From Komagataeibacter xylinus NBRC 15237 (GTDB taxonomy: Bacteria; Pseudomonadota; Alphaproteobacteria; Acetobacterales; Acetobacteraceae), in the NCBI RefSeq assembly GCF_001571345.1, contig NZ_BCTP01000001.1, positions 124,001 to 188,000 on the forward strand: DNA of 64,000 nucleotides. Direction: 5' to 3'. The position numbers were made by a program, and so were the translations under genes. Positions 1,637-60,674 of the stretch are shown piece after piece (the first letter of the stretch is position 1; each line of letters starts with the position of its first letter). Below the pieces are notes generated by a model. The model was not told the origin of the DNA, made no database searches, and worked only from the letters and a program-made list of their open reading frames with translations.

Positions 1637-1676
1637 GTTTCTGGTGAAGCTTTTTTCAAAAAGCTTCACCAGAAAC
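1637..1676. repeat. Dispersed palindrome, copy 1 (single hairpin form)
   Basis: A near-perfect 40-base palindrome: GTTTCTGGTGAAGCTTTTTT, then CAAAAAGCTTCACCAGAAAC. It sits between the convergent genes ending at 1616 (+) and 1684 (-). It corresponds to hairpin 1 (GGTGAAGC arm) of the two-hairpin family seen at 9131, 13705, 29958, 47334 and 60595. The arms are long enough, and the loop T-rich enough, to act as a bidirectional transcription terminator, which is inference. Confidence 0.85.
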
Positions 1677-1683
1677 ATTTATC

Positions 1684-2529
1684 TCAGGCTTCGCGCGCCT
1701 GGCTTGCGGCATGAGCCTTGAGGTCGGCTGCGGTGCGGCGCACTTCCGGCCCGTATTCGCGCTCAAGCCTGCGGATGGTGAAATGCGCCTGCGCCACCGC
1801 GCGGTAATGCGACAGGAACGCAGCGTTGAGCGAGGCCCCGCACAGGGCACCGGCCACCGGCATCATCTGCAACGCGAATTTGCGCGACAGGCCCAGCCCG
1901 TAATGGGTAGCGACCTCGCTGACCAGCATCACAACCGGGCGGCCACGCAGCATGGCGCGGGCGGAGAAATAGCCCAGCTCGCTTTCCTCTGCCGGGCCTT
2001 TTTTTGCACCAAACGGGAAGGCCCGCAGCGCAAAGACTTCAAGGCAGGCCACGCGCGAGGCTTCGGTGGAAAGATCTTCGCCATTCTCACGCGCAATGCG
2101 GGCAATCTCGCGCATGATGGCCATGGTGGTGAAGCCTACATCCGCCACCAGCCCCGGCAGGCCGGTAAAGCCGCCCACGGCGCCGGACACGGTCACTGCG
2201 GCCTTGAGCGCGGGGTCGCGCCACGTACCACCGGCGCTGGCCTCGGCCGAGACATCATGCGGGCGGTCCATGCCCACCACCGCAAGGTCGAACGCGCGGC
2301 GGATGGCCGCCTCCGCCGTGGCCTGCAACTTGGCCTGCAGCGTGGGGGCCAGCCCCAGCGTGCGCATGCCCAGCATGGCCGCCTGCCCCACGGCGCCGCC
2401 CATGAGGTCGGCCAGGCGCACGAGCACGCCCCGCCCGGTCTCGACACGTTCCAGCGCCTGCTGGAGTTCAGTGATACACGCGCTGTCCAGCGTCAGCGGT
2501 GCCAGTTCGTTTGCGGAACCTGCACTCAT
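1684..2529 (-). CDS. EcsC family protein
   Basis: 281 residues from ATG at 2529, preceded by GAAGGG. The C-terminal half has the EcsC-domain pattern: glycine-rich helices (AVGGFTGLPGLVADVGFTT), ELGYFSARAMLRGRP, then LSRKFALQMMPVAGALCGAS followed by an N-A-A-F-x-x-H-Y stretch and IRRLEREYG near the end. EcsC was named from a Bacillus operon beside an ABC transporter, but the biochemical role of the domain is unknown. Here there is no transporter neighbour. The central segments are moderately hydrophobic, suggesting membrane association. The frame extends 31 codons further upstream, but those residues look non-native. It is convergent with the gene at 1416 and may be cotranscribed with the EVE gene behind it. 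Confidence 0.8.
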   Translation of the reverse strand: MSAGSANELAPLTLDSACITELQQALERVETGRGVLVRLADLMGGAVGQAAMLGMRTLGLAPTLQAKLQATAEAAIRRAFDLAVVGMDRPHDVSAEASAGGTWRDPALKAAVTVSGAVGGFTGLPGLVADVGFTTMAIMREIARIARENGEDLSTEASRVACLEVFALRAFPFGAKKGPAEESELGYFSARAMLRGRPVVMLVSEVATHYGLGLSRKFALQMMPVAGALCGASLNAAFLSHYRAVAQAHFTIRRLEREYGPEVRRTAADLKAHAASQAREA

Positions 2530-2707
2530 TACAATGCCCTTCGCCTGATCTATCGTACCGCGCGCCAGCCTGCGGGCCACGCCATGGCGGCGCGGCCCCA
2601 CATGGCCAGCCGCAACGCCCATGCGGCAATTGCCACCGTTTCAGCACCATGATGGCATTCTTGCAACGGGCATGAGCATGCCCGCAGCCATGAAACGCGG
2701 GCACAGC

Positions 2708-3121
2708 CTAGCTGTTCCAGCCCCCCATGCGGCACAGATGCGCCCAGTGCGCATCCGATACCGGCACGACGGAAAGGCGCGACTGCCGCACCAGGGCCAG
2801 GTCGGCCAGCGCCGGATCGGCCTTGATTCCGGCCAGCGTCACGGGGGTGGGCATGGGGCCGATGGCACGCACGTCCACGCACACCCACCGGCCATCTTCC
2901 GCCGTGGGGTCGGGATAGGCCGCGCGCACGACTTCAACCACGCCCACGATCTCGCGGCCCACGTTGGAGTGATAGAAGAACGCCCTGTCACCCACCTGCA
3001 TGGTGGCGAGGTTCTTCCTTGCCTGATGGTTACGCACGCCGGTCCAGGGTTCAGTGCCGTTTTCCACCTGCTCGGCCCATGAAAACGCATCCGGCTCGGA
3101 CTTGATCAGCCAGTAGGCCAT
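2708..3121 (-). CDS. EVE domain-containing protein
   Basis: 137 residues matching the EVE fold (thymocyte nuclear protein 1-like): it opens MAYWLIKSEPDAFSWAEQV and continues WTGVRNHQARKNLATMQVGD, then FFYHSN, GVVEVVRAAYPDP, and LVRQSRLSVVPV. EVE domains are structurally related to PUA/YTH modules and are thought to bind modified nucleobases in RNA or DNA. This stand-alone version, about 140 residues, is widespread in proteobacteria with no fixed function. It starts 9 bases downstream of the stop of the YciI gene on the same strand, so the two probably form an operon. Confidence 0.92.
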   Translation of the reverse strand: MAYWLIKSEPDAFSWAEQVENGTEPWTGVRNHQARKNLATMQVGDRAFFYHSNVGREIVGVVEVVRAAYPDPTAEDGRWVCVDVRAIGPMPTPVTLAGIKADPALADLALVRQSRLSVVPVSDAHWAHLCRMGGWNS

Positions 3122-3130
3122 GACCGTTTT

Positions 3131-3424
3131 CTACTCCACCCGCAGCCCATCACGAAAAACTGAACGGAACGGACGGATCACCACGCTCTCGAACAGGTCC
3201 ACCTTCGCATACGGGTCGGCAGCCGCGAATCCTTCCGCCGCCGCGCGGTCGGCCACGTCCACCACCAGCAGGCTGCCGCAGGGGCGGTTTTCCGCGTCCA
3301 GCAGCGGGCCGCCCTGCACCAGGTGCTGCCTGTGCTGCTCAAGGTAGGCAAGGTGTTGCTCACGGGTTGCCTTGCGGGTTTCAAGCCCGGTGGGCCTGTC
3401 GGTGCAGATGATGGCAAACAGCAT
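3131..3424 (-). CDS. YciI family protein
   Basis: 97 residues, a typical YciI (YCII/dimeric alpha-beta barrel) length. It begins MLFAIICTDRPTGLETRKAT and includes REQHLAYLEQH, GGPLLDAENRPCGSLLVV and AAADPYAKVDLFESVVIRPF. The conserved His of the family and the terminal A-D-P-Y/F-x-x-A-x-L pattern are present. The fold resembles ferredoxin-like monooxygenases and chlorite dismutase relatives. Most YciI proteins have no proven reaction. The first ATG at 3424 sits directly after AGGAGGATAAA on the minus strand, an excellent ribosome-binding site. It precedes the EVE gene in an apparent two-gene operon. Confidence 0.9.
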   Translation of the reverse strand: MLFAIICTDRPTGLETRKATREQHLAYLEQHRQHLVQGGPLLDAENRPCGSLLVVDVADRAAAEGFAAADPYAKVDLFESVVIRPFRSVFRDGLRVE

Positions 3425-3601
3425 GTTTTATCCTCCTGTGGGCCTGCTGTCTCACGATTGGGACAGGACTGGCCGTGTCTTTTTTAACGCGATAGTGTAG
3501 AGCAACAAAACGTCAGCCCCTACCCACCCGTGGGGGAAGGCCGGAATTTCTTGACCGTTTTCATCGCAGGGACAGGTGCCCCCGGCACGGATGGATCAAC
3601 C

Positions 3602-4399
3602 TTGAACGCAACGCAGAGCCTTACCGCGCGAACCGGTAACCTTTTTCACCGTTATGCCAACCCTGGCCGTTTCCTGCGCATGGGGGCCAAACTCCAGCCC
3701 TGGCTGACATGGCCCGCCCTTGTGCTGTCGGTTGCCGGAATCGTGTGGGGACTGTTCTTCTCCCCCGCTGACTGGCAGCAGGGCGACAGCGTGCGCATCA
3801 TGTACGTGCATGTGCCTACCGCATGGCTGGCATCATCAGGTTATATGGGCCTTGCGGTATGCTCGCTGCTCTCGCTGGTGTGGCGCCACCCGCTGGCCGA
3901 TCTTGCCGCGGTGGAAATCGGACCGGTGGGCGCTGCCATCACCGCCGTGTGCCTGGCCACCGGCTCGCTGTGGGGCAAGCCGATGTGGGGCACCTGGTGG
4001 GTGTGGGATGCGCGGCTGACCTCGGTGCTGGTGCTGTTCTTCCTGTATCTGGGCCATATCGCGCTGATCCGCGCGTTTGACGAGCCGCAGCGCGGCTACC
4101 GCGCCGCCGCCATCCTTGGCCTTGCGGGCGCGGTTGACCTGCCCATCATCAAGTTCAGCGTGCAGTGGTGGAACACCCTGCACCAGCCCGACAGCATTAC
4201 GGTGACCGGCGCGCCCACCATGTCCACCTCCATGCTGTGGCCGCTGGGCCTGACCACGCTGGGCTTTACGCTCGGCTTCGCCGCCATCGTGCTCGCCCGC
4301 CTGCGCGCCTCGGTCATGGAAAGCCGGGTGCGCACCATCCTTGCCGCCAACCGGGGCCGCCAGTCAGCCGCCCCCCAGCCCGATCGCGCCACCCCATGA
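3602..4399 (+). CDS. ccmC: Heme exporter/heme handling protein CcmC
   Basis: System I cytochrome c maturation membrane protein that loads heme onto CcmE. The diagnostic tryptophan-rich motif GSLWGKPMWGTWWVWDARLT is complete. The two flanking His ligands fall in MYVHVPTAWLAS and NTLHQPDS, and six hydrophobic segments are visible. Homology begins at LFHRYANPGRFLRMGAKLQP, matching the start of other CcmC proteins, so the N-terminus lies near TTG 3602 (265 residues). The frame stays open back to GTG 3530, and an ATG occurs at 3680, so the start is uncertain. It is the first ccm gene here; ccmA and ccmB are not upstream. The stop overlaps ccmD by ATGA. Confidence 0.93.
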   Translation: MNATQSLTARTGNLFHRYANPGRFLRMGAKLQPWLTWPALVLSVAGIVWGLFFSPADWQQGDSVRIMYVHVPTAWLASSGYMGLAVCSLLSLVWRHPLADLAAVEIGPVGAAITAVCLATGSLWGKPMWGTWWVWDARLTSVLVLFFLYLGHIALIRAFDEPQRGYRAAAILGLAGAVDLPIIKFSVQWWNTLHQPDSITVTGAPTMSTSMLWPLGLTTLGFTLGFAAIVLARLRASVMESRVRTILAANRGRQSAAPQPDRATP

Positions 4400-4542
4400 C
4401 CCACCTGCCCTATATCGTGGCCGCCTATGGCCTGACCCTTGGCGTTGCCGCCATCCTGTCGGTCAATGCCACGCTGCGCCTGCGCCAGGCCCGCAAGCGC
4501 CTTGCCGCCATTGAACAGCCCCGGACACGCCAGCCCTCATGA
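4396..4542 (+). CDS. ccmD: Heme exporter subunit CcmD
   Basis: 48 residues, starting at an ATG that overlaps the ccmC stop (ATGA at 4396-4399). One transmembrane segment (about residues 5-23, YIVAAYGLTLGVAAIL) is followed by a basic cytoplasmic tail (RLRQARKRLAAIE), exactly the layout of CcmD. CcmD helps release holo-CcmE from the CcmABC complex. Position between ccmC and ccmE and the overlaps on both sides (stop overlaps ccmE start at 4539) support the call more than the weakly conserved sequence. Confidence 0.92.
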   Translation: MTHLPYIVAAYGLTLGVAAILSVNATLRLRQARKRLAAIEQPRTRQPS

Positions 4543-5063
4543 CCCGCAAGAGCAGACGCCTGTGGCTGGTGGTGGCATGCATGATCGGGCTGGGCTCGGC
4601 AGCAGCCCTTACGCTCAATGCCTTTTCCTCCAATATCGTGTTTTTCATGGCGCCCTCGCAGGTGCACAGCAAGCCACCGCCGGCTGACCGCACCATCCGC
4701 CTTGGCGGCATGGTGGTGGCAGGCAGCGTGCGCCAGGAAAAGGTGAAGGACGCCCCTGTCGCCATCTTTGACGTAACCGACGGGCAGGCCGCCGTGACCG
4801 TGCGCTACGAGGGCATCCTGCCCGACCTGTTCCGCGAGGGGCAGAGCGTGGTGGCCGTTGGCACCGTCAACCCCGATGGCACGTTCCGCGCCAGCGAAGT
4901 GCTGGCCAAGCATGACGAGACCTACATGCCCAAGGAAGTGGCCGAGGAACTGCGCCGCAGCGGCAAGTGGGACCCGCGCTTCGGCAAGGCTCCCGATGCC
5001 GCAAGCTGGAACACCATGACCGCCGCAGACAATGCGAAAAAACCGGCCACCCAGACGCCTTAA
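4539..5063 (+). CDS. ccmE: Cytochrome c maturation heme chaperone CcmE
   Basis: 174 residues. An N-terminal signal anchor (about residues 8-30) is followed by a periplasmic OB-fold domain: RTIRLGGMVVAGSV, FDVTDGQAAVTVRYEGILPD and LFREGQSVVAVG. The covalent heme-binding site is VLAKHDETYMPKE, where the His binds heme and the Tyr serves as axial ligand. CcmE receives heme from CcmC and delivers it to the CcmF/H ligase. The start overlaps the ccmD stop by ATGA, so translation is probably coupled. Confidence 0.97.
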   Translation: MTRKSRRLWLVVACMIGLGSAAALTLNAFSSNIVFFMAPSQVHSKPPPADRTIRLGGMVVAGSVRQEKVKDAPVAIFDVTDGQAAVTVRYEGILPDLFREGQSVVAVGTVNPDGTFRASEVLAKHDETYMPKEVAEELRRSGKWDPRFGKAPDAASWNTMTAADNAKKPATQTP

Positions 5064-5082
5064 CGGAAACTGACATCCGACA

Positions 5083-7062
5083 ATGAACCCGGAACTTGGA
5101 AATTTTGCACTGGCGCTGGCATGCTGCATGGCCGCCGGACAGGCCATCCTGCCCCTGATTGGCGCAAGCCGCCGCGATGCGCGGCTGATGGCGCTGGCCC
5201 CCGCGCTGGCGGTGGGGCAGATGATCGCGCTCATCACCTCATTCGCCTGCCTGATCCATGCTGCCATCACCAATGACTTTTCGGTGCAGAACGTGGCGGC
5301 CAACAGCGCGGTCAGCAAGCCGCTGCTCTACAAGATCACCGGCGTATGGGGCAATCATGAAGGCTCGGTGCTGCTGTGGGCGATGATCCTGTCCATGTGT
5401 GGTGGGGCTGTGGCGCTGTTTGGCCGCAACCTGCCCTCAGCCCTGCAGGCGCGCGTGATTGCGGTGCTTGGCGGTGTTGCGGCAGGGTTTGAACTGTTCT
5501 GCCTGACCACATCCAATCCGTTTGCCCGCGTGTGGCCTGCCCCCATGGATGGCCAGGGCATGAACCCCCTGCTGCAGGACCCCGGCCTCGCCTTCCACCC
5601 GCCCATTCTCTACACCGGCTATGTCGGCTTTGCCGTGCCCTTCGCCTTTGCCATCGCAGCCCTGATCGAGGGCCGGGTAGATGCCGCATGGGGCCGCTGG
5701 GTGCGCCCGTGGGCCGTGGCGGCCTGGTGCTTCCTGACCTGTGGCATCGCCATGGGGTCGTGGTGGTCGTATTACGTGCTGGGCTGGGGCGGCTACTGGT
5801 TCTGGGACCCGGTGGAGAACGCATCCCTCATTCCGTGGCTGACGGGCACGGCGCTGGTGCATTCGGCCATTGTGGTGGAAAAGCGCGAGGCGCTGAAGAT
5901 CTGGACCGTGCTGCTGGCCATCGGCACGTTCTCGTTCTCGCTCTCGGGCACGTTCCTCGTGCGCTCGGGCATTCTCAACTCGGTGCATGCCTTTGCCAAT
6001 GACCCCGCACGTGGCGTGTTCATCCTTGGCCTGCTCGCCCTTGTCATTGGCGGCTCGCTGCTTCTATTCGCCATCCGCGCCCCGCAACTGACCGCGGGCG
6101 GGCTGTTTGCCCCTGTCTCGCGCGAGGGGCTGCTGGTGCTCAACAACATCCTGCTGTGCTCGATCTGCGCGGTGGTGCTGACAGGCACGATGTACCCGCC
6201 CTTCATGTCGCTGCTGTTTGGCAAGACCATCTCGGTCGGCAAGCCGTTCTTTGATGCGACCACCATTCCGCTGGCCATTCCGCTCATGGTATTCATGGGC
6301 TTCGGCCCCATGATGCCGTGGAAGCGCGCGCAGATGTGGCCGGTGCTGCGCCGCCTGTGGTGGGCCGCCTGCGTAACAGCAGTGGCGCTCGTGGTAGCCA
6401 CATTCCAGATACGCGAGATCCTGCCGGTGCTGGCCACGGCCACCGCCGTGTGGGTGATCTGCTCCAGCGCGGCTGACATTGCCGAGCGCCTGCGCCTGTT
6501 CCGCCAGCCTCTTGGCCAGAGCTGGCAGCGTGCGCGCAGCCTGCCGCGCGCGGTGTTTGGCGCGGCCCTGGCCCATGCGGGCGTGGGCATTGTGGTGCTA
6601 GGCATTGCCGGCATGTCGCAGGCGGCGCACCGCATTGTGGAAGTGCATGTGGGCCAGAGCGAGATGCTGGCGGGCGATAGCTGGACCCTGACCGACGTAA
6701 AGCCTGCCGAAGGCCCGAACTACACCGCGCTGGTGGCCACGATTGAAGTGCGCCACAACGGCAGGCTGATCACGACGCTGCACCCCTCCAAGCGCACATT
6801 TGCCAGCCAGCACCAGACTACGACCGAGGTTGCGATCCATACCAACCTCATGGCCGACATCTACGGCGTGCTGGGCGACAAGCATGGCGATGACGCCAAC
6901 CCGACCTATGTGCTGCGCCTGCATTACAACCCGCTGGCGCCGTGGATGTGGCTGGGCGGGCTGATCATGGCCTTTGGCGGCGCACTTTCCCTGTCCGACC
7001 GGCGCGTGCGCGTGGGCGCGCCACGCCGGGCCAAAACCGTTGATGTGGTGGTGGTGCAATGA
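5083..7062 (+). CDS. ccmF: Heme lyase subunit CcmF
   Basis: 659 residues, the standard size. A multi-spanning membrane protein with the WWD heme-handling domain near residues 226-250 (WGGYWFWDPVENASLIPWL) and conserved His residues in GVWGNHEGSVLLW, LAFHPPILYTGY and LVHSAIVVEKRE. It forms the heme ligase with CcmH/CcmI, attaching heme to CXXCH of apocytochromes, such as the three-heme subunit encoded at 40932-42281. The start follows the ccmE stop by 19 bases. The last codons overlap the ccmG start (ATGA at 7059-7062). Confidence 0.97.
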   Translation: MNPELGNFALALACCMAAGQAILPLIGASRRDARLMALAPALAVGQMIALITSFACLIHAAITNDFSVQNVAANSAVSKPLLYKITGVWGNHEGSVLLWAMILSMCGGAVALFGRNLPSALQARVIAVLGGVAAGFELFCLTTSNPFARVWPAPMDGQGMNPLLQDPGLAFHPPILYTGYVGFAVPFAFAIAALIEGRVDAAWGRWVRPWAVAAWCFLTCGIAMGSWWSYYVLGWGGYWFWDPVENASLIPWLTGTALVHSAIVVEKREALKIWTVLLAIGTFSFSLSGTFLVRSGILNSVHAFANDPARGVFILGLLALVIGGSLLLFAIRAPQLTAGGLFAPVSREGLLVLNNILLCSICAVVLTGTMYPPFMSLLFGKTISVGKPFFDATTIPLAIPLMVFMGFGPMMPWKRAQMWPVLRRLWWAACVTAVALVVATFQIREILPVLATATAVWVICSSAADIAERLRLFRQPLGQSWQRARSLPRAVFGAALAHAGVGIVVLGIAGMSQAAHRIVEVHVGQSEMLAGDSWTLTDVKPAEGPNYTALVATIEVRHNGRLITTLHPSKRTFASQHQTTTEVAIHTNLMADIYGVLGDKHGDDANPTYVLRLHYNPLAPWMWLGGLIMAFGGALSLSDRRVRVGAPRRAKTVDVVVVQ

Positions 7063-8107: not shown

Positions 8108-8114
8108 GATTGAT

Positions 8115-8837: not shown

Positions 8838-8922
8838 CCGGCACATCAATAACGCGCTATTGCGGCCTGCCGGGGGCTTTTACGCTTGCAAGCCTGCCCG
8901 TGCCGGGCGGAAAGTGATGGGC

Positions 8923-9102: not shown

Positions 9103-9130
9103 TCCTGCTGCCCATTTCCTTAAAAAATAA

Positions 9131-9213
9131 TAGAAGTTTTTGGGTGCCGCCTTTTTTCAAAAAGGCGGCGTCCTTTTGAAGCTTTTTGAAAAAAGCTTCA
9201 CCAAAAACTTTTG
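9131..9213 (-). repeat. Dispersed two-hairpin palindromic element, copy 2 (full length)
   Basis: Read on the minus strand: hairpin 1 GGTGAAGCTTTTTTCAAAAA followed by GCTTC, a short linker ending GGAC, then hairpin 2 GCCGCCTTTTTGAAAAAAGG followed by CGGC, and ACCCAAAAACTTCTATTATT. It fills the gap between the convergent genes ending at 9102 (+) and 9215 (-). This is one of the best-preserved copies. Confidence 0.88.
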
Positions 9214-9214
9214 C

Positions 9215-9733: not shown

Positions 9734-9757
9734 GACAGTTCCCAGCCTTTTCTCTCA

Positions 9758-13692: not shown

Positions 13693-13704
13693 AAACAGAT
13701 GAAC

Positions 13705-13783
13705 GTTTTTGGTAAAGCTTTTTTCAAAAAGCTTCGCAAGACGCCGCCTTTTTGAAAAAAGGCGGCACCCAGAAACTTTTATT
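13705..13783 (+). repeat. Dispersed two-hairpin palindromic element, copy 3 (full length)
   Basis: Plus orientation: GTTTTTGGTAAAGCTTTTTT then CAAAAAGCTTCGCAAGAC, followed by GCCGCCTTTTTGAAAAAAGG, then CGGCACCCAGAAACTTTTAT. It lies between the convergent genes ending at 13692 (+) and 13885 (-). It is followed immediately by a separate conventional terminator hairpin. A chance open frame beginning MVKLFSKSF arises from this copy. Confidence 0.88.
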
Positions 13784-13800
13784 CTTCTCTCTCAATACAA

Positions 13801-13837
13801 AAAAAGGGCGGTGCATTCCTGCACCGCCCTTTTTCAT
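13801..13837 (-). terminator. Rho-independent terminator of rpsA (bidirectional)
   Basis: Stem GGGCGGTGCA / TGCACCGCCC (10 bp) with a TTCC loop, flanked by an A-run on the left and a T-run on the right, so it can work in both directions. It lies 48 bases past the rpsA stop on the minus strand and 109 bases after the M16 peptidase stop on the plus strand. Confidence 0.9.
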
Positions 13838-13884
13838 GCCCGGCTCCAGCCCACGCCTGCGCGGGCCGGAGCCTGTGGCTCGGA

Positions 13885-15582
13885 TCAGCTCTCGGCGTTA
13901 CGGCGACGGATCGCGGCACCCAGAATGTCACCCAGCGACGCACCGCTATCGGAAGAACCGTAGTCGGTGATCGCCTGCTTGTCTTCCTCGACCTCACGGC
14001 CGCGGATGGTCAGGGCCAGCTTGCGGGCAGCACGGTCAACCGACACGACCTTCGCATCGACACGCTCGCCAACGGCGAAGCGCTCGGGGCGCTGGTCGGC
14101 CTTGTCACGGGCCAGTTCCGCACGGCGGATGAAGCCGGTCAGAACGTCGTCAACCTTCACCTCGATGCCGTTCGCCTGCACCGCGGTCACGATGCAGGTT
14201 ACGACCGCACCCTTCTGCACCTTGCTCAGCGTGTCGGCTGCGGGGTCTTCATGCAGCTGCTTGATGCCCAGCGAGATGCGCTCTTTCTCCACGTCCACGT
14301 CCAGAACCTTGGCCTTTACGACCTGGCCCTTCTCGTAGTGGCTCATGGCGACTTCGCCCGCCTCGTCCCACGACAGGTCGGACATGTGAACCATGCCATC
14401 GATGTCGGCGGAGAGGCCGATGAACAGGCCGAACTCGGTGATGTTGCGGATCTCGCCTTCCACCACGGAACCAACCTTGTGTTCCTCGGCGAACTGCTCC
14501 CACGGGTTGCGCTGCACCTGCTTCAGGCCCAGCGAGATGCGGCGCTTCGCGCTGTCCACATCCAGAACCATCACATCGACTTCCTGCGAAGTGGCGACGA
14601 TCTTGCCCGGATGGACGTTCTTCTTCGTCCAGGACATCTCGGACACGTGCACCAGGCCTTCGACGCCCGGCTCGAGTTCCACGAATGCACCGTAGTCGGT
14701 GATGTTCGTGACGCGACCGGTGTAGCGGGCACCCGGCGGATACTTGATCGCCACGTTCTCCCACGGGTCAGCCTCAAGCTGCTTCATGCCCAGCGAGATG
14801 CGCTGCGTGTCGGGGTTGAAGCGGATGACCTGCACGCGGACCGGCTGGCCGATCTGCAGCGCCTCGGACGGGTGGTTGATGCGCTTCCATGCGATATCGG
14901 TCACATGCAGCAGGCCATCGACGCCACCAAGGTCAACGAACGCACCGTAATCGGTGATGTTCTTGACCACGCCATCGAGGATCATGCCTTCCTTCAGGCC
15001 CTGGATCAGCTCGCTGCGCTGTTCCGCACGGGTCTCTTCGAGCACGGCGCGACGCGAAACGACGATGTTGCCGCGCGCGCGGTCCATCTTCAGGATCTGG
15101 AACGGCTGGGGCACGCCCATCAGCGGGGTCACATCGCGCACGGGGCGGATGTCCACCTGGCTGCCCGGCAGGAACGCCATTGCGCCGCCGAGGTCGACCG
15201 TGAAGCCACCCTTGACGCGGCCATAGATCGTGCCGTTGACGCGCTGGTTGCCTTCGAACGCCTTTTCAAGGTTCGACCAAGCTTCCTCGCGGCGGGCCTT
15301 CTCGCGCGACAGGACAATGGACCCGTCACGATCTTCGTACCGCTCGACGAACAGTTCGATGACATCACCCGGCTTGACATCGGGGGTAACGCCCGGCGGG
15401 CCGAATTCCTTGAGGGAAACGCGCCCTTCGCTTTTCAGGCCGACATCGACGATGGCGTATTCATCCGTCAGGCGAACGACGCGACCGGTAACGACGGAAC
15501 CGTCAAACGCGGAATCGCGACCGAGGGTTTCCTCGAGGAGATCGGCAAAGTTCTCGACGGGCTGTGTTGTGGCTGAAGCCAT
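13885..15582 (-). CDS. rpsA: 30S ribosomal protein S1
   Basis: 565 residues with six S1 RNA-binding repeats. Clear repeat cores include GVVKNITDYGAFVDLGGVDG, GRVTNITDYGAFVELEPGVE and GEIRNITEFGLFIGLSADID. S1 recruits mRNA to the 30S subunit. The gene order aroA-cmk-rpsA is the usual alphaproteobacterial one. 274 bases separate cmk from rpsA, room for its own promoter; a TTGACA box (minus strand, 15813-15808) occurs there but only with a weak -10, so I do not annotate it. The long plus-strand frame opposite is a codon-bias shadow. Confidence 0.98.
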   Translation of the reverse strand: MASATTQPVENFADLLEETLGRDSAFDGSVVTGRVVRLTDEYAIVDVGLKSEGRVSLKEFGPPGVTPDVKPGDVIELFVERYEDRDGSIVLSREKARREEAWSNLEKAFEGNQRVNGTIYGRVKGGFTVDLGGAMAFLPGSQVDIRPVRDVTPLMGVPQPFQILKMDRARGNIVVSRRAVLEETRAEQRSELIQGLKEGMILDGVVKNITDYGAFVDLGGVDGLLHVTDIAWKRINHPSEALQIGQPVRVQVIRFNPDTQRISLGMKQLEADPWENVAIKYPPGARYTGRVTNITDYGAFVELEPGVEGLVHVSEMSWTKKNVHPGKIVATSQEVDVMVLDVDSAKRRISLGLKQVQRNPWEQFAEEHKVGSVVEGEIRNITEFGLFIGLSADIDGMVHMSDLSWDEAGEVAMSHYEKGQVVKAKVLDVDVEKERISLGIKQLHEDPAADTLSKVQKGAVVTCIVTAVQANGIEVKVDDVLTGFIRRAELARDKADQRPERFAVGERVDAKVVSVDRAARKLALTIRGREVEEDKQAITDYGSSDSGASLGDILGAAIRRRNAES

Positions 15583-22635: not shown

Positions 22636-22732
22636 ATGAGAGACCGGCCATAACCCGGACGAAACTCACTACGGCTGCTTCCTTCCGGACCTGACCAGGT
22701 TAGCAAGGTATCCGTCTACAACCGATCTCCCG
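22636..22732 (-). ncRNA. ffs: Small bacterial signal recognition particle RNA (4.5S type)
   Basis: The minus strand carries the almost invariant SRP apical domain: GGTCAGGTCCGGAAGGAAGC (around 22694-22675), i.e. the symmetric and asymmetric loops plus the GGAA tetraloop that binds Ffh. The outer helix closes perfectly: GAGATCGG (22729-22722) pairs with CCGGTCTC (22646-22639), with one G-U pair. The length of about 97 nt is that of the single-hairpin Gram-negative form. It lies 70 bases upstream of dnaX on the same strand. Ends are estimated from the base-paired helix. Confidence 0.93.
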
Positions 22733-29909: not shown

Positions 29910-29940
29910 AACAGGAGCCAGAAATGGCTCCTGTTTTTTT
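29910..29940 (+). terminator. Rho-independent terminator of clpA
   Basis: Stem ACAGGAGCCA / TGGCTCCTGT with a GAAA loop, followed by TTTTTTT. It is 27 bases after the clpA stop and directly before a dispersed palindromic element. Confidence 0.93.
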
Positions 29941-29957: not shown

Positions 29958-30039
29958 AATAAAAGTTTTCGGGTGCCGCCGTTTTTCAAAAAGACTGCTT
30001 CTTTCAAAGCTTTTTGAAAAAATCTTCACCAAAAACTTC
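29958..30039 (-). repeat. Dispersed two-hairpin palindromic element, copy 4 (degenerate)
   Basis: Read on the minus strand: AGTTTTTGGTGAAGATTTTT, then TCAAAAAGCTTTGAAAG, followed by a damaged hairpin 2 (CAGTCTTTTTGAAAAACGGC) and GGCACCCGAAAACTTTTATT. It lies between the clpA terminator and the YnfA gene, i.e. at a 3' end but between codirectional genes. Both arms carry mismatches. A chance frame beginning MVKIFSKSF arises here. Confidence 0.8.
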
Positions 30040-30394: not shown

Positions 30395-30440
30395 AAAAGC
30401 TTCGAAAAGAACACCGCCTTTAAAAAAGGCGGCATTCTGA
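30395..30440 (+). repeat. Dispersed palindromic element, copy 5 (right half only)
   Basis: AAAAGCTTCGAAAAGAACAC followed by CGCCTTTAAAAAAGGCGGCA: the end of hairpin 1, the linker AAAAGAAC, and an intact hairpin 2. The left arm of hairpin 1 is missing. It is located between the convergent genes ending at 30392 (+) and 30452 (-). Confidence 0.75.
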
Positions 30441-30451
30441 AACCTGTTCAA

Positions 30452-47162: not shown

Positions 47163-47203
47163 TAAAAGCCTTTTGAAAAAAGTTTTACCAAAAACTTTTT
47201 CCT
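47163..47203 (-). repeat. Dispersed palindromic element, copy 6 (half, degenerate)
   Basis: On the minus strand: AAAAAGTTTTTGGTAAAACT followed by TTTTTCAAAAGGCTTTT, a mismatched hairpin 1 without hairpin 2. It lies 12 bases after the cobD stop. Together with copy 7 it flanks about 130 bases of unassigned sequence. Confidence 0.7.
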
Positions 47204-47333: not shown

Positions 47334-47411
47334 GTTTTGGTGAAGCTTTTTTCAAAAAGTTTTGAAAAGAACGCCACTTTTTTTAAAAAGGCAGCGCCCA
47401 GAAACTTTCTC
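47334..47411 (+). repeat. Dispersed two-hairpin palindromic element, copy 7
   Basis: Plus orientation: TGTTTTGGTGAAGCTTTTTT, then CAAAAAGTTTTGAAAAGAAC, GCCACTTTTTTTAAAAAGGC and AGCGCCCAGAAACTTTCTCT. Both hairpins have a few mismatches. It abuts the cobQ stop at 47412, in the convergent cobD-cobQ gap. A chance frame beginning MVKLFSKSF arises here too. Confidence 0.82.
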
Positions 47412-52405: not shown

Positions 52406-52441
52406 CCGCTCCTGCTTTCCAACATGTCGCACCGAGCATCC

Positions 52442-53939: not shown

Positions 53940-53991
53940 ACGCCGGGACAGGCATGCGGCCATGCGCGCCGCAAGCGCGGTATCCGCGCAA

Positions 53992-54029
53992 GCCCGTCAG
54001 GTCCGGGCCTAATCGCGCGCCTGACGGGC
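53992..54029. repeat. Inverted repeat at convergent gene ends
   Basis: GCCCGTCAGG (53992-54001) pairs with CCTGACGGGC (54020-54029), a perfect 10-bp stem with an 18-base loop. It spans the stop codon of the minus-strand gene ending at 54009 and lies 53 bases after the plus-strand gene. No T-run follows, so it is not a canonical intrinsic terminator. It differs from the AT-cored repeat family. Confidence 0.65.
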
Positions 54030-54905: not shown

Positions 54906-55279
54906 GGGGAAACGGCTCCCTTTCATGATTAAATATAATGCATTTTCTGCCAAAGCTTTGAAAATTATGTTCATTTTTTAATCATAATGCTTTTATCAAG
55001 GCATCTTTGCTTGTCAGCCGTTAACGTGTCTGACAATGTTCGCGACAGAACAACCATTTGATGCTGCATGATATTTCTTTCTGTTTTTTGCCCACCGCAC
55101 GGCTTCTGCCCCAAAGGGCCAGATCTGCACGGACCGGACCGAGCCGTTCCCACCATACAGCAAAATTGCATAATTTTTGCACATGGTATTAGGCCTGCCC
55201 CGAACAATGCCACGCCAGACAACCGGCTGGCCCCTTCCTTCACCCTCCCATCTGCGATGACCACGGCGGAGACGACAGC
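54906..55279. other. Divergent promoter region
   Basis: About 370 bases between the minus-strand exported protein and the plus-strand permease. TTGCAT and TTGCAC at about 55166-55183 form a direct repeat of TTGCA with an AT-rich spacer, plausibly part of the permease promoter or operator. One short open frame (55068-55283) overlaps the permease start but has no ribosome-binding site and is not called. Confidence 0.45.
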
Positions 55280-56734
55280 ATGAGCATACCGGACCACGTG
55301 CAGGAAGACAGCACCCCCATTTTGCCAGTGGAAGATGACGAGGGCTATCACAAGGGGCTGGGCAGCCGCCAGATCCAGATGATCGCCATAGGCGGCGCGA
55401 TCGGCACGGGGCTGTTCCTTGGCGCGGGCTCGCGGCTGCAGGCGGCGGGGCCCTCACTCGCGCTGGTCTATCTGGTGTGCGGCATGTTCTCGTTCCTGAT
55501 CATGCGCGCACTGGGCGAACTGGTCATGTACCGCCCCACCTGCGGCAGCTTCGTGTCCTACACGCGTGAGTTCCTGGGCGAGAAGGCGGCGTTCGTGGCC
55601 GGGTGGCTTTCCTTCATGAACTGGGCCATGACCGGCATTGTCGATATTACGGCGGTGGCGCTGTACATGCATTTCTGGGGCACGTTCGCCTTCGTGCCGC
55701 AATGGGTCTTCGCCCTCATGGCGCTATGCGTGGTCACGACACTCAACCTGGTGGGCGTGAAGTGGTTTGGCGAGATCGAGTTCTGGTTCTCGCTCATCAA
55801 GATCGTGGCGCTATGCCTGTTCCTCGTGGCGGGCAGCATCATACTGGGCGTGCGCATGCCCGTAGGCGGCCACCAGACCGGCCTGCACCTGATTGCCGAT
55901 AATGGTGGCATCTTTCCGCATGGGCTGATTGCCAGCCTGCTGCTGGTGCAGGGCGTGGTGTTCGCCTATTCGGGCATAGAACTGATCGGGACCGCAGCGG
56001 GCGAGTGCGCGGATGTGCGCACCGTCCTGCCGCGTAGCATCAACAGCGTGATCTGGCGTATTGGCCTGTTTTATGTGCTGTCGGTGGTGCTGCTGGTCAA
56101 CCTGCTGCCCTGGACCGCCTATCACGGCGGCACCAGCCCGTTTGTTACGTTTTTTGAGACGCTTGGCGTGCCGGGCATTGATACGATCATGAACATCGTG
56201 GTGCTTACGGCCGCACTGTCCAGCCTCAACTCGGGGCTGTATTCCACCGGGCGCGTGCTGCGCGCCATGGCGCTTGGCGGCGCCGCTCCTGCGCCGCTGG
56301 CCCGCATGAATGCAAGCGCCGTGCCCGCCAACGGCATCCTGCTTACGGTTGCTGTCTACCTTGTGGGCGTGGTGCTCAATTACATCGTGCCCTCGCAGGT
56401 GTTCGAGATCGTGCTGAACATGGCGGCGATCGGCATCATCAGCACCTGGGGGTTCATCCTGCTCAGCCAGATCAAGCTGCGCGAGGCAGTACGCAGCGGG
56501 CGCATGCCCTCATCGGGTTTTGAAATGCCGGGCGCGCCCTTCACCTCGTGGCTGACACTGGCCTATCTGGCAGGCGTGCTCATGCTGATGCTGTTTGACT
56601 ACCCCAATGGCACCTACACCATTGCCAGCATGTCGATCGTGGCCGTGCTGCTGGTGCTGGGGTGGAAATACCTCAACCCCGCGCGCCCGGCCCCGCAGGA
56701 TGGGCAGGAGCCGCCGCGCATGACCGCGCCATAA
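55280..56734 (+). CDS. ansP: Amino acid permease of the APC family, AnsP (L-asparagine) type
   Basis: 484 residues with about twelve transmembrane helices. GYHKGLGSRQIQMIAIGGAI followed by GTGLFLGAGSRL is the N-terminal amino-acid-permease signature, and RALGELVMYRPTCGSFVSYT, FMNWAMTGIVDITAVALYMH and VFAYSGIELIGTAAGECADV agree with AnsP/CycA-like proton symporters. The specific asparagine call rests on resemblance plus the asparaginase gene at 58143, and D-serine/alanine or aromatic permeases are alternatives. ATG 55280 gives the complete N-terminus. Confidence 0.85.
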   Translation: MSIPDHVQEDSTPILPVEDDEGYHKGLGSRQIQMIAIGGAIGTGLFLGAGSRLQAAGPSLALVYLVCGMFSFLIMRALGELVMYRPTCGSFVSYTREFLGEKAAFVAGWLSFMNWAMTGIVDITAVALYMHFWGTFAFVPQWVFALMALCVVTTLNLVGVKWFGEIEFWFSLIKIVALCLFLVAGSIILGVRMPVGGHQTGLHLIADNGGIFPHGLIASLLLVQGVVFAYSGIELIGTAAGECADVRTVLPRSINSVIWRIGLFYVLSVVLLVNLLPWTAYHGGTSPFVTFFETLGVPGIDTIMNIVVLTAALSSLNSGLYSTGRVLRAMALGGAAPAPLARMNASAVPANGILLTVAVYLVGVVLNYIVPSQVFEIVLNMAAIGIISTWGFILLSQIKLREAVRSGRMPSSGFEMPGAPFTSWLTLAYLAGVLMLMLFDYPNGTYTIASMSIVAVLLVLGWKYLNPARPAPQDGQEPPRMTAP

Positions 56735-56740
56735 AAGAAA

Positions 56741-56770
56741 ACGGCGGGAGAACTGCCATTCTCCCGCCGT
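56741..56770 (-). terminator. Strong hairpin with terminator polarity toward the minus strand
   Basis: ACGGCGGGAGAA pairs perfectly with TTCTCCCGCCGT (12 bp, 6-base loop). On the plus strand it is preceded by AAAAGAAA and followed by CTCAC, so no U-run follows for the permease transcript. On the minus strand it is followed by TTTCTTTTA, a terminator-like tail. It begins 7 bases after the permease stop. No recognised minus-strand gene ends here. Confidence 0.6.
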
Positions 56771-56994
56771 CTCACTGGTCTGTCAGCCTGAGGAGCACCG
56801 TCGTGATGTCCTGATCCCTTCCCTGCGACTGCAGTTTGTATAGCAGGCACCCGAACACTGACCCCACACCCCATAAGACCCGGCATGCACTGCCATGCAT
56901 GCAGGGACGCCCTGAGCAGGAAATGGCCTCAACCATGATTTCCCTGACACGCGCCCACGCCGCAAGGCTGGGCACCGCATCCGCTCGCCGCGCC

Positions 56995-58065
56995 ATGACA
57001 GCACGGGAAAAAGACGCCGGCCGCCCCTGTGGAAGAGCATCATACATTCCGACACCGGAATCAATATTATTCGTTGCGATTCCATTTCTTGTTGCCCTCG
57101 CCAGCCTTTCATCCGCGCAGGCGGCAGGCACGGGCAATGGCACGGCGGCAGGCTCGCAGGGCGTGAACGAACATTACACCCAGTGGTACACCGGCTCGCT
57201 CGTCTCCCCCTCCGGCGCGCTGACCAAGAAGGGCGTGTTTGCGTGGGAGCCGTATTTTGCCTACAGCCAGCCGGTAGGCAACCTCGATAGCGTGGGCCGG
57301 GCAGCCCCCATAAAAGACCGGGCGCACATGGTCTCGAGCTTCACGCTCTACAAATATTCCATTACCAATTCGATCAGCCTGCAGATGACGCCCACCATCA
57401 GCTACGGCTGGCGGCATGGTGGCTATGGCGGCACGACAAGCGGCACGAAAATGGGCGACCTGCCGGTAGATGTGATGTGGCGCTACCTTGATGCCGACCC
57501 AAAGCGCTACATTCCCGCACTGAGCCTGTTCGTGGGCGTGGCCTTTCCTTCCGGGGATTATACAAAACTGGGCCGCGCGGAAGATGGCGTGGGCACCGGC
57601 ACCTACACCTTCCGCGTAGCGCTTACCGAGCAGTCCACCTACACCCTGCCCGGCCACCACGAGTTGCGGCTGCGCACATGGGGCACCTTTCGCCGCGCGC
57701 TGACGCAGGCGCATATTGCCGATATCAGCAGTTATGGCACCTCGGCGGGGTTTCGCGGGCTGGCGCATCCGGGCATGTATGGCGAGAGCGGCTTCTCCCT
57801 GGAATATGGCGTGAACCAGAAATGGGTCATCGCCATGGATCTGGCGCGCGACTGGGCCAATGGCTCGCGGGTGCGGGGCTATAACGCACAGGGCAAATAC
57901 CAGGACGTGCTGGGGCAGGCCTCGGGTAACTGGGTGATCGCACCTGCGGTGGAATATAACTGGTCGCCACGCTTTGGCATCATTGCCGGTGTGACCGCCA
58001 TTTTTGCAGGCCATAACACCGGGCAGGTCATCTCGCCGCAATTTGCTTTCAACAGCGTGTTCTGA
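56995..58065 (+). CDS. Outer-membrane beta-barrel protein (MetA-pathway/transporter-like, PF13557-type)
   Basis: 356 residues from ATG 56995, chosen because the signal peptide ILFVAIPFLVALASLSSAQA then lies about 24 residues in; the frame is open to 56836, with other ATGs at 56899-56935. The mature sequence is a Tyr/Gly-rich barrel: WYTGSLVSPSGALTKKGVFA, EPYFAYSQPVGNLDS, SLQMTPTISYGWRHGGYGG, LSLFVGVAFPSGDYTKLG and IAPAVEYNWSPRFGIIAGV, ending in Phe. The layout is that of PF13557-like outer-membrane proteins. Its role between a permease and an asparaginase is unclear. Confidence 0.75.
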   Translation: MTAREKDAGRPCGRASYIPTPESILFVAIPFLVALASLSSAQAAGTGNGTAAGSQGVNEHYTQWYTGSLVSPSGALTKKGVFAWEPYFAYSQPVGNLDSVGRAAPIKDRAHMVSSFTLYKYSITNSISLQMTPTISYGWRHGGYGGTTSGTKMGDLPVDVMWRYLDADPKRYIPALSLFVGVAFPSGDYTKLGRAEDGVGTGTYTFRVALTEQSTYTLPGHHELRLRTWGTFRRALTQAHIADISSYGTSAGFRGLAHPGMYGESGFSLEYGVNQKWVIAMDLARDWANGSRVRGYNAQGKYQDVLGQASGNWVIAPAVEYNWSPRFGIIAGVTAIFAGHNTGQVISPQFAFNSVF

Positions 58066-58082
58066 CAGCCGCCGAAAGCATT

Positions 58083-58128
58083 ATTTTTGAAGCTTTTTGA
58101 AAAAAGCTTCACCAAAAACTTTTATTCA
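58083..58128 (-). repeat. Dispersed palindromic element, copy 8 (hairpin 1 only)
   Basis: On the minus strand: AAAAGTTTTTGGTGAAGCTT then TTTTCAAAAAGCTTCAAAAA, an intact hairpin 1 without hairpin 2. It fills the gap between the convergent genes ending at 58065 (+) and 58143 (-). A short chance frame beginning MVKLFSKSF arises from it. Confidence 0.85.
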
Positions 58129-58142
58129 TAAACAGTCCTGGA

Positions 58143-59144
58143 TCAAGGCCGGTCGAACAAAGCCTGGATGGCATCGGCATCCGCGCCGGTCATGAGCGCG
58201 AGGGCGAGCAGGATGCGCGCCTGCCGGGGGCGCATGTGGCCTGCCGCGAGCAGGCCGCGCTGGCACAGTTCCTGACGCTGCACCACGCCGCCACAATACC
58301 CGCTGCTGGCCTGCACCACCACAACGCCCGCCGCCACGGCCTCATCAAGGGCGGCGTTCTCGGCGGGCGTGCACATGCCGGGCAGCATGCCTGCCGCGAT
58401 GAGGCCACGCGCACCGGCGCGCACAAAGGCGCGTATGCCCACGCCATCGGCGCCTGCATGGCTGTAGGTTATGTCAACACGCGGGATTTCGCCGCCCGCG
58501 CCATAAGCGGGTGGCCAGCCCACATGCCGGCGGTAGGCACTTGCGCGCCCAAAAAACACCCGGTTGGCCTCGATCATGCCAAGCGGACCAAAATCGGGCG
58601 AGCGGAAGGTTTCAAGCTGATAGGTGGAAGCCTTGGTCACTTCCTGGGCGGCGTGGATCTCGTTATTGGCCACCACCAGCACGCCGCGACCGGCCGCCTG
58701 CGGGGCCGATGCCACCAGCAGGGCGGCATACAGGTTGGCCGGACCATCGGCGCTGATGGCGCTCGCCGGACGCTGCGCGCCCACCACCACCACCGGACAG
58801 GGCACATCGAGCACAAGATCGAGAAAACAGGCGCCCTCCTCCAGCGAGGACGTGCCGTGGGTCACGACCACGCCGCTCAGATCGGGCTGGCTTGCAACCG
58901 TGTGGCTGATGACGCTGGCCAGCTCAAACCACCGCTCCAGGGTCATCTCCACGCTGTCGCAACTGGAGAAGGGAATGCCCCGCACCGCAAAGCGCGCCCG
59001 CACGGCCTCGGGCAGGGCCGCAAGCAGGTCGGCCCCGCCAAGGCTTGTGCCAATCTCGGCATAATCGACCGTATCACGCGGGTCCATCGCCTGGCGGGCA
59101 ATGGTGCCGCCGGTTGATATAATGGCTATGACGGGTCGCTGCAT
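58143..59144 (-). CDS. L-asparaginase
   Basis: 333 residues without a clear signal peptide. The first catalytic motif is IAIISTGGTIARQ (nucleophile Thr). The second is VVVTHGTSSLEEGACFLDL, in which the usual HGTDT reads HGTSS: the Asp of the Thr-Lys-Asp triad is replaced by Ser. ASAISADGPANLYAALLVAS with the substrate-binding D-G-P-A-N-L block and VLVVANNEIHAAQEVTKAST are conserved; the Lys of the triad falls in the last of these. It hydrolyses asparagine to aspartate and ammonia. Asparaginase-type activity on another substrate is possible given the Asp loss. Confidence 0.88.
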   Translation of the reverse strand: MQRPVIAIISTGGTIARQAMDPRDTVDYAEIGTSLGGADLLAALPEAVRARFAVRGIPFSSCDSVEMTLERWFELASVISHTVASQPDLSGVVVTHGTSSLEEGACFLDLVLDVPCPVVVVGAQRPASAISADGPANLYAALLVASAPQAAGRGVLVVANNEIHAAQEVTKASTYQLETFRSPDFGPLGMIEANRVFFGRASAYRRHVGWPPAYGAGGEIPRVDITYSHAGADGVGIRAFVRAGARGLIAAGMLPGMCTPAENAALDEAVAAGVVVVQASSGYCGGVVQRQELCQRGLLAAGHMRPRQARILLALALMTGADADAIQALFDRP

Positions 59145-59220
59145 TCCGCTCCACCTTCTGGTTCAGGCATACTGGGCGCGATCAATCACGCAGGCAGGCC
59201 GCCTGTCAAACCCGCCAGCA

Positions 59221-59265
59221 GAAGTTTCGGGGTGCTGCCTTTTTAAAAAAATACTTTTGTTGGTT
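59221..59265 (-). repeat. Dispersed palindromic element, copy 9 (decayed)
   Basis: AGAAGTTTCGGGGTGCTGCC followed by TTTTTAAAAAAATACTTTTG on the plus strand: the outer flank and part of hairpin 2 are recognisable, hairpin 1 is deleted. It lies just past the 3' end of the flavoenzyme gene at 59268 (minus strand) and upstream of the asparaginase gene. Confidence 0.55.
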
Positions 59266-59267
59266 TT

Positions 59268-60536
59268 TTACTGATATGGTCCCGGCTCCGGCACCCAACC
59301 CGTCAGCAGGTTGCGCCCGATTTCAGCATTTTTCCAATCCACGGGGTCATGCAGCGACAGGGTGCGGGCATCGCGCCAGTAACGGTCCAGCCCTTGGGCT
59401 GCATCCGTGCCCCGCGCGCCTGCCGCTGCCGGTGCCTCACTGGCCGCGCGCAGCGCCGCGCGCGTGGCCACCGAACGCGCGGCACTCGCGGCCATGGCCA
59501 CCATGGCGCGGGGCACTTCGCCCTGCTCATGCTGGTCAAGCAGGCGGCCCGCCTGCGCCACGCTGCACCAGGCACCGAACAGGTCGGCCCCGATCTCGCC
59601 CAGCAGGCGGCGCACATAGGGGTCCTGATCCGCGCTGTCCACGCCTGCGGCCCCCCACGGGCGGGCATGATCGGGCACAAAGGCACAGACCGCCCGCAAC
59701 GCGCCAATGCCGATACCGGTCAGGATGGCGCTGAAACCGGCCTGAAAACGCAGGGCGACATGCTGCGGCAGGGCGGTATCGGGGGCCAGGGCGTTCCAGA
59801 AATCATCGACCACGACATTCTCCAGCGTCACGGTGCCGGAATCGGTCGCGCGCTGGCCCATGCGGTTCCAGTCATGGTGAAAGCGCAGCCCCGCCGCCCC
59901 ACGCGGCACGAGGTCCATGCGCACGCCCGCGCGCACGCTCCCCCCCGCCTGCTGCGCCCGCACGGGATCGAAGGAGGAGACGGCCACAAGGTCCGCGCCC
60001 GAGGCCCCGGTGGCATAGATCTTGCGGCCTGACACGACATGCGTGCCAGCATGACCTGGCCGGGCCAGTGTCTGCATGAAACTGTCCGCCCTGCGCCCGT
60101 TCTCGGCCACGGCCATGCCGAGAATGACGTGCTCATGCACGATGCGGCGCGCCAGCACGGGCCTGAGCGCTGCGGGCGCATAGACAAAGATCTCGCGCAC
60201 CAGATCGTCATGCACCTTGTAGATCTGGGCAATGGCGGGGTCCGCCACGGCAAGGCGCAGCATGAATTCGAGCGAGAGCGCCTGTGTCACCCCAAGCCCA
60301 CCCCAGGCGCGTGGCACGGCAAGGGCCAGCACGCCGGTGGCCTTCAGCGCCGCCATGGCCTGGTGGGGGTAGCCACCTTCGCGGTCACGCTGCGCTGCCG
60401 TGGGGGCGATGACGGTGTCAATCACCGCCTGCGCCCGCAGCAGCACCGCACCCGCTTCACCCTGCACGGGGCGGGCGGGAAACAGGTCACCTAACAGCGG
60501 GGGCAGGCACGGGGCCTGTGCCGATGGAATGCTCAT
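59268..60536 (-). CDS. Acyl-CoA-dehydrogenase-fold flavin monooxygenase (DszC/SfnB-like)
   Basis: 422 residues with the acyl-CoA dehydrogenase fold. GVLALAVPRAWGGLGVTQAL, LGMAVAENGRR, VSGRKIYATGASGADLVAVS, DWNRMGQRATDSGTVTLENV and the final ARTLSLHDPVDWKNAEIG followed by RNLLTGW are the features. The last block is typical of the DszC/SfnB/flavin-dependent monooxygenase branch rather than true acyl-CoA dehydrogenases, which carry a catalytic Glu. These use reduced FMN from a partner reductase, often to take sulfur from organosulfur compounds. No partner reductase is in the window. Confidence 0.85.
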   Translation of the reverse strand: MSIPSAQAPCLPPLLGDLFPARPVQGEAGAVLLRAQAVIDTVIAPTAAQRDREGGYPHQAMAALKATGVLALAVPRAWGGLGVTQALSLEFMLRLAVADPAIAQIYKVHDDLVREIFVYAPAALRPVLARRIVHEHVILGMAVAENGRRADSFMQTLARPGHAGTHVVSGRKIYATGASGADLVAVSSFDPVRAQQAGGSVRAGVRMDLVPRGAAGLRFHHDWNRMGQRATDSGTVTLENVVVDDFWNALAPDTALPQHVALRFQAGFSAILTGIGIGALRAVCAFVPDHARPWGAAGVDSADQDPYVRRLLGEIGADLFGAWCSVAQAGRLLDQHEQGEVPRAMVAMAASAARSVATRAALRAASEAPAAAGARGTDAAQGLDRYWRDARTLSLHDPVDWKNAEIGRNLLTGWVPEPGPYQ

Positions 60537-60594
60537 GCGGCACGATAGGAAGGATGGCGCGGGGCATCAACCATCCCTCTCTTTTTAAAATAAC

Positions 60595-60674
60595 AGAAGT
60601 TTCCGAGTGCCGCCTTTTTTCAAAAAGGCGTCGTTCTTTCAAAGCTTTTTGCAAAAAGCTTCACCAAAAACCCT
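60595..60674 (-). repeat. Dispersed two-hairpin palindromic element, copy 10
   Basis: Minus strand: GGTTTTTGGTGAAGCTTTTT followed by GCAAAAAGCTTTGAAAGAAC, then GACGCCTTTTTGAAAAAAGG and CGGCACTCGGAAACTTCTGT. It lies between the flavoenzyme start at 60536 and the MFS stop at 60683, both minus strand, i.e. at the 3' end of the MFS gene. Confidence 0.87.

Follow-up and report, generated by a model that had tools for sequence, protein, structure and literature searches.

A two-hairpin repeat concentrated at gene 3′ ends in Komagataeibacter xylinus is carried by a miniature transposable element and may act as a bidirectional transcript-end module

Results

The window analysed here is a stretch of 64,000 nt from Komagataeibacter xylinus NBRC 15237 (contig NZ_BCTP01000001.1, positions 124,001 to 188,000), which contains ten copies of a dispersed palindromic repeat (Table 1). 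The full unit is a 79-bp core, AAGTTTTTGGTGAAGCTTTTTTCAAAAAGCTTCGAAAGAACGCCGCCTTTTTGAAAAAAGGCGGCACCCAAAAACTTTT (consensus of an iterated profile), in which hairpin 1, an A-rich linker and hairpin 2 all lie inside an outer inverted repeat. A first-pass annotation, made from the sequence alone, had described this repeat at ten sites, and the described sequence was present at all of them. Our independent gene calls reproduced its arrangement of seven copies between convergent genes, three between codirectional genes and none between divergent genes. Further, its remark that some copies retain one hairpin or are decayed held: five copies are full, one is a single long hairpin and four are partial. 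The profile was seeded with the five full copies, which match it by construction, and iterated over 864 kb; the five other copies joined during iteration, two of them weakly.

Table 1. Copies of the repeat and other features in the window
Feature	Position	Strand	Gap	Further data
Single long hairpin copy (hairpin 1 and both outer arms)	1624..1677	.	convergent	fold z -7.3
Full two-hairpin core, seed	9132..9210	-	convergent	E 4e-25; fold z -5.1, -5.2 (two strands)
Full two-hairpin core, seed	13704..13780	+	convergent	fold z -4.9, -3.8
Ordinary terminator-like hairpin with T-run	13806-13834			after the 13704..13780 copy
Ordinary terminator-like hairpin with T-run	29912-29940			before the 29961..30038 copy
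Full two-hairpin core, seed	29961..30038	-	codirectional	
Partial copy (end of hairpin 1, linker, hairpin 2)	30395..30445	+	convergent	
Partial copy (outer arm and hairpin 1)	47163..47197	-	convergent, shared with the 47334 copy	E 4e-4, weak
Full two-hairpin core, decayed, seed	47334..47410	+	convergent	
Partial copy (hairpin 1 and outer arm)	58084..58121	-	convergent	
Decayed partial copy (hairpin 2 side)	59220..59251	-	codirectional	E 9e-4, weak
Full two-hairpin core, seed	60584..60671	-	codirectional	11 nt 3′ of stop codon; fold z -1.8
Small signal recognition particle (SRP) RNA gene, bacterial	22636-22730	-		Rfam RF00169, 57.4 bits

The genome comprises 3.62 Mb in 156 contigs, from which we sampled 864 kb (the window and 40 further stretches). 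Genes were called with a simple gene finder, whose starts are approximate and which may miss small genes. The sample contained 110 merged copies, of which 73 were near complete. Convergent gaps held 62 of the 110, codirectional gaps 42 and divergent gaps five; one lay at a contig edge and none inside a called gene. The numbers expected from free intergenic length were 10.9, 66.6 and 31.5, respectively, and those expected from the number of TNA sites were 14.0, 67.5 and 27.5. When gaps of at least 30 bp were counted, copies occupied 56 of the 84 convergent gaps, compared with 39 of the 318 codirectional ones and 4 of the 97 divergent ones. Some stretches (contigs C5, C7, C8 and C9) had been partly chosen with the hit list in view; when these were removed, 66 copies remained in 624 kb (36 convergent, 25 codirectional, 4 divergent and 1 edge), and 33 of the 53 convergent gaps, 25 of the 233 codirectional ones and 3 of the 67 divergent ones had a copy.

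In codirectional gaps the upstream stop codon was the nearer gene end for 37 of the 42 copies, with a median distance of 20 nt from that stop and 110 nt from the next start. The distance to a stop was about 20 nt or less for many copies, and in convergent gaps this frequently applied to both stops. The orientation of the 42 codirectional-gap copies relative to the gene was even (20 same, 22 opposite). The first-pass annotation had restricted the repeat to 3′ ends; the strong bias stands, but the absolute rule does not, since 5 of 110 copies occupied divergent gaps. The opposite outcome that it had named, equal scatter over divergent gaps or genes, was not observed. Two weak copies were located in a single divergent gap of about 1.2 kb (C3 17234-17449, L130), where a missed gene is possible.

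A pattern consisting of GGTGAAGC, 0 to 30 bases and GCTTC gave 148 strand-matches genome-wide, a few of them in other sequence, whereas the reversed pattern gave 4; of the 110 sampled copies, 100 lay outside the window. The repeat is therefore not a product of chance.

The exact 22-base hairpin 1 was found in all 19 genomes of the genus that were examined (including that of NBRC 15237), and in none of 41 further genomes from the same family and class. Among the matches listed for a 25-base string, at least 107 stretches came from named genomes, belonging to Komagataeibacter, Novacetimonas, Gluconacetobacter entanii, Acetobacter and Gluconobacter. These stretches, which were chosen for containing hairpin 1, held at least 168 elements. 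Of the 161 elements with a score of at least 30 among the matches listed, 85 lay in convergent, 52 in codirectional and 4 in divergent gaps; a further 2 were called intragenic and 18 fell at the edge of a stretch. Copies in Acetobacter (11 convergent, 8 codirectional, 0 divergent, 1 edge) and Gluconobacter (3 convergent, 1 codirectional, 0 divergent), again among the matches listed, follow the same positional tendency. The list also included one match in a metagenome-assembled genome of Alistipes (L114 182-233; outer arm and hairpin 1, 33.7 bits), for which chance, contamination and transfer are all possible.

When extended by a few bases on each side, the consensus was predicted to form, on either strand, a single outer stem that closes the two hairpins, at about -40 kcal/mol. 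Of six folds computed for four window copies, five had z values from -3.8 to -7.3 and one had -1.8. We then counted double-compensated cells in 232 distinct near-complete rows, which are related to one another, and compared them with shuffles. The GC stem of hairpin 2 showed 50 such cells versus a shuffle mean of 14.2 (maximum 24), its T/A part 8 versus 1.0 (maximum 4), and the GC stem of hairpin 1 8 versus 0.9 (maximum 4). No strand-specific tolerance of wobbles was apparent in the hairpin 2 stem; G-T wobbles were about as frequent as C-A/A-C mismatches and thus neither RNA strand was clearly favoured.

The core is also found inside a larger unit. Among the matches listed, 17 perfect end pairs were chosen by eye and 16 were fetched, a set hence selected for perfect repeats; all 16 are miniature inverted-repeat transposable elements (MITEs) of 161-165 bp with 15-bp perfect terminal inverted repeats, GAGACTGTTTGAAAA, and the core inside. 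All 16 were flanked by 3-bp direct target duplications, which were TNA in 15 cases and ATA in one. A second set from one genome (G005) comprised 20 places, five of them overlapping the first set; 15 copies were two-ended when decayed ends were allowed and 5 were one-ended. A matching duplication flanked 10 of the 15 two-ended copies, which lay in 9 convergent and 3 codirectional gaps, 2 divergent gaps and at 1 edge. Two-ended MITEs of the K. xylinus genome were convergent in 8 of 11 cases. At the one site tested for an empty allele, that of the L229 MITE (target TCA), the relative G008 possessed the empty site (L293). The unit therefore has the terminal inverted repeats, the fixed-length duplication and the occupied and empty alleles of a MITE. 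Accordingly, the "mobile REP-like element" of the first-pass annotation (REP, repetitive extragenic palindrome) is supported as mobile, in the form of a MITE with terminal repeats and TNA duplications, but not as REP-like.

The target site of the L229 MITE sits within an older core. Further, another core was present within 150 bp of 9 of the 16 MITEs, versus 1088 of 5222 intergenic TNA sites in our own sample (P 0.002; the comparison mixes species). In L259 (around 850-1800), the element or MITE is interrupted by transposase-bearing copies of about 820 bp that have ends like GGGTCTGTTGGGAATT, and in L186 (around 1500) by a similar end, so the element or MITE is itself a target of insertion sequences (ISs). 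A possible compound unit was seen in L214 (544-1590), where a reading frame that contains a CSACH motif, judged by eye to be cytochrome-c-like, lies between two MITE-like copies separated by about 1 kb.

Most copies of the core lack detectable MITE ends. Of the 73 near-complete copies in the K. xylinus sample, 11 had both ends, 11 had one and 51 had none; shuffled flanks reached the end threshold in 11 (left) and 5 (right) of 1460 trials. Conversely, the MITE end profiles gave 14 and 15 matches beside a core and only one each elsewhere (1 of 15 and 1 of 16 without a core). In the window, the five full copies were scored, the five partial ones being left out, and none had MITE ends.

Transposase genes with PF13340 and PF01609 domains, which we labelled IS5-type on the basis of these domains, are common in the genus. 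We fetched 75 of the 248 listed loci (30 of 138 PF13340, 30 of 95 PF01609 and 15 of 15 PF05598 matches). One of them, L336, is an 884-bp element with a transposase between MITE-like ends, GAGCCTGTTTGGAAA, and no matching duplication (TTA versus TGA). Another, L334, measures 897 bp and has ends similar to those of the MITE, GAG(G/T)CCGTTTGAGAA, and a TAA duplication. IS5-type elements of the IS1031 group duplicate TNA. The MITE is probably mobilised by an IS5-type transposase.

The history of individual sites was examined on contig C2 (160 kb, an unselected region), which has 17 occupied gaps. In a relative with 95% identity (G004), 15 of 16 placed sites were shared and all 8 scorable orientations were the same. 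In G009 (84% identity), 8 of 16 placed sites were shared (5 of 8 convergent, 3 of 7 codirectional and 0 of 1 divergent), with two scorable orientations the same and two opposite. In G013 (85% identity, half of the region), 2 of 7 placed sites were shared and the one scorable orientation was the same. Gaps that are empty in K. xylinus were seldom occupied in these relatives (2 of 80, 1 of 78 and 0 of 45, respectively), and several gaps without a copy in relatives carried a GC-rich hairpin instead, as judged by eye. A copy was flipped in place at three orthologous gaps. At one of these, C7_68, the K. xylinus copy is bordered by a MITE arm at one end and by the resident flank at the other, a pattern that matches the expected product of recombination between an incoming and a resident core.

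We examined whether copies resemble terminators. In core-only copies, both flanks carried T-rich exits after the outer stem, with about five T in eight positions (arms were identified for 34 and 35 of the 51 copies), and MITE-type copies likewise had T-rich exits. Because the orientation relative to genes is even and both sides have T-rich exits, a role as bidirectional terminator is plausible from these sequence features. Ordinary terminators were counted with the copies masked, in convergent gaps of at least 10 bp, and were present in 14 of the 56 gaps with a copy and in 15 of the 37 without one. Where at least 50 nt were free they were detected in 14 of 26 occupied versus 13 of 21 empty gaps; mutual exclusion of copies and ordinary terminators was thus not found where room allows. 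Where less than 50 nt were free they were detected in 0 of 30 occupied and 2 of 16 empty gaps. The copy is therefore the only candidate in about half of the occupied convergent gaps, because there is no room for another (30 of 56 have less than 50 nt free). Among codirectional gaps with a length of 80 bp or more, an ordinary terminator was detected in 4 of the 39 with a copy and in 23 of the 185 without one.

No Rfam family corresponded to the repeat, and in the window only the SRP RNA exceeded its gathering score; between 9000 and 14000, four sub-threshold matches all fell within 13723-13923. In two relatives (L164 of G003 and L170 of G015), about 7 kb of extra DNA occupied the gap orthologous to window positions 58065-58143, where the 58084 copy is located in K. 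xylinus.

Discussion

We lean, by a little, towards the interpretation that the core is a bidirectional two-hairpin module of gene 3′ ends, either a terminator or a barrier at the mRNA end, which is dispersed and renewed by a MITE. The core, transcribed from either strand, would adopt the three-way fold of outer stem and two hairpins followed by a short U-rich end. Situated behind stop codons, it would end transcription of both neighbouring genes, or fix and protect the ends of their mRNAs; one or the other activity is likely. It would be dispersed as cargo of the 161-165 bp MITE with GAGACTGTTTGAAAA ends and a TNA duplication, by means of an IS5-type transposase, and the MITE would often insert in or beside older copies. 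Incoming and resident cores would then recombine, so that the copy is renewed or flipped in place, the MITE ends are lost and the core is kept.

A stronger version of this interpretation is possible but tentative. It describes a terminator-cargo transposon that inserts at TNA, prefers gene ends already bearing a copy and, through recombination, renews the bidirectional terminator resident there, and that would supply gene-end signals to much of the genome. Since the stop codons TAA and TGA, as well as their complements, conform to TNA, a TNA duplication can spare a stop.

Several results weigh against a module renewed by a MITE. In a strict test for intrinsic terminators (hairpin and U-tract), only 10 of the 73 near-complete copies passed on the forward strand, 17 on the reverse and 4 on both, and a generic scan of 44.5-64 kb marked a hairpin in one of the five copies there. 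Nor is the copy the sole candidate everywhere, because an ordinary terminator lies beside it in a quarter of the occupied convergent gaps. Double-compensated cells were absent from the T/A part of hairpin 1 (shuffle mean 0.4), and in the outer stem they did not clearly outnumber those in shuffles (17; mean 11.6, maximum 19); the covariation observed might also reflect quasi-palindrome correction or the history of subfamilies. No intact IS with the exact MITE ends was found by end scans of the 75 fetched loci. At 84-85% identity, 8 of 16 placed sites in G009 and 5 of 7 in G013 were unshared. Core-only copies may represent an older lineage rather than remnants of the MITE, because the bases next to hairpin 1, compared by eye, are ATAAAAG in most core-only copies versus AAGGAAG in MITEs. 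Finally, the 3′ bias needs no slow functional selection, since two-ended MITEs are already mostly convergent in both sets. Such an early bias suits an element that is harmful elsewhere by stopping transcription, and equally a plain selfish element.

The most serious alternative, itself doubtful, is a selfish MITE family without host function, which survives only at 3′ ends because it is harmful elsewhere and of which core-only copies are relics. The convergent bias of recent-looking two-ended MITEs, the target duplications with one empty site, the clustering of MITEs near older copies and the coexistence with ordinary terminators where room allows all agree with it. Further, a bias towards convergent and unidirectional gaps is common among REPs elsewhere, as described in the part of PMC3733652 available to us. 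Against it speak the absence of ends where the core is kept (51 of 73 copies without ends, arms almost never alone), the many copies that adjoin one or both stops, the compensatory change in hairpin 2 and the sharing of half of the placed sites even at 84% identity.

It is unlikely that the core is an mRNA 3′-end stabiliser or processing site instead of a terminator, with transcripts ending beyond it, for example by Rho, and being trimmed back to the folded core. End trimming back to a folded repeat has been proposed for enterobacterial REPs. The very stable fold predicted for both strands, the position directly 3′ of stops and the weak match to the classical terminator test would suit such a site, but the T-rich exits kept on both sides of core-only copies are needless for an exonuclease barrier.

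Mobilisation as a REP family by a REP-associated tyrosine transposase (RAYT) is very improbable, although the repeat is palindromic, dispersed, extragenic and 3′-biased. The first-pass annotation had proposed a search for such a transposase; the Y1 transposase family (PF01797) gave no match in any of the 19 genomes of the genus, with a positive control in E. coli, so current mobilisation by a RAYT is not supported. In addition, no GTAG or CGTC tag was seen when the 79-bp consensus was read by eye, and the terminal repeats and target duplications are those of another transposon type. We rejected RAYT mobilisation on these grounds. Inverted pairs of a DNA uptake signal that double as terminators, as in Neisseria and Pasteurellaceae, would also enrich an inverted motif in tail-to-tail gaps, as uptake signals do according to the available part of PMC1852404, but this explanation was dismissed almost entirely since all 59 half-sites, GGTGAAGCTTTTT, in 864 kb lay within copies and none was free.

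The module that we favour shares features with several known systems. The GTAG and CGTC families of REPs, in the part of PMC3733652 at hand, are likewise short, palindromic, dispersed repeats that lie mostly 3′ of genes in convergent or unidirectional gaps; the repeat described here differs in that an outer inverted repeat encloses two different hairpins, in that neither a tag nor a RAYT was seen and in its MITE carrier. The terminators of Neisseria and Haemophilus formed by uptake signals also place one inverted repeated sequence at tail-to-tail gene ends (PMC1852404, in the part available), whereas our repeat has no unpaired half-sites in the sampled 864 kb. The IS5-type elements L336 and L334 of the same genus have ends that resemble those of the MITE; in contrast, the exact MITE ends were on no intact IS found and L336 lacks a matching duplication. 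Correia, RUP and ERIC elements are bacterial MITEs. Like these, the unit described here is small, non-autonomous and intergenic, with terminal repeats, a short duplication and many copies; unlike in these, most copies are without ends but with the two-hairpin core, the target is TNA and the convergent bias is strong.

In Gluconobacter oxydans, a 100-bp region behind GOX0028, between convergent genes, ends transcripts efficiently as judged by RNA-seq, according to the part of PMC7055074 available. Its position between convergent genes is like that of our repeat, a likeness drawn from the published description. No core copy was present in seven G. oxydans loci around matches to pyrroloquinoline quinone (PQQ)-dehydrogenase. 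We also considered a link to the G. oxydans TgdhM terminator and rejected it, as other sequence follows the five PQQ-dehydrogenase matches examined. Among the papers listed by literature searches (the element sequence; MITEs and REPs in these genera; terminator-bearing MITEs; IS1031; GOX0028) we found no published report of the element, and the available parts of PMC8426231, PMC5756330, PMC9429829, PMC8102297, PMC4686929 and PMC2267715 do not mention it.

The repeat offers a clear test of whether hairpin repeats at gene ends are tolerated or used. Should the core end transcripts, a single repeat would mark where messages finish in roughly two thirds of the convergent gene pairs sampled, and gene-end signals in an industrially used genus would come in part from a mobile element. 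The cores would then be compact candidate bidirectional terminators for cellulose and vinegar bacteria.

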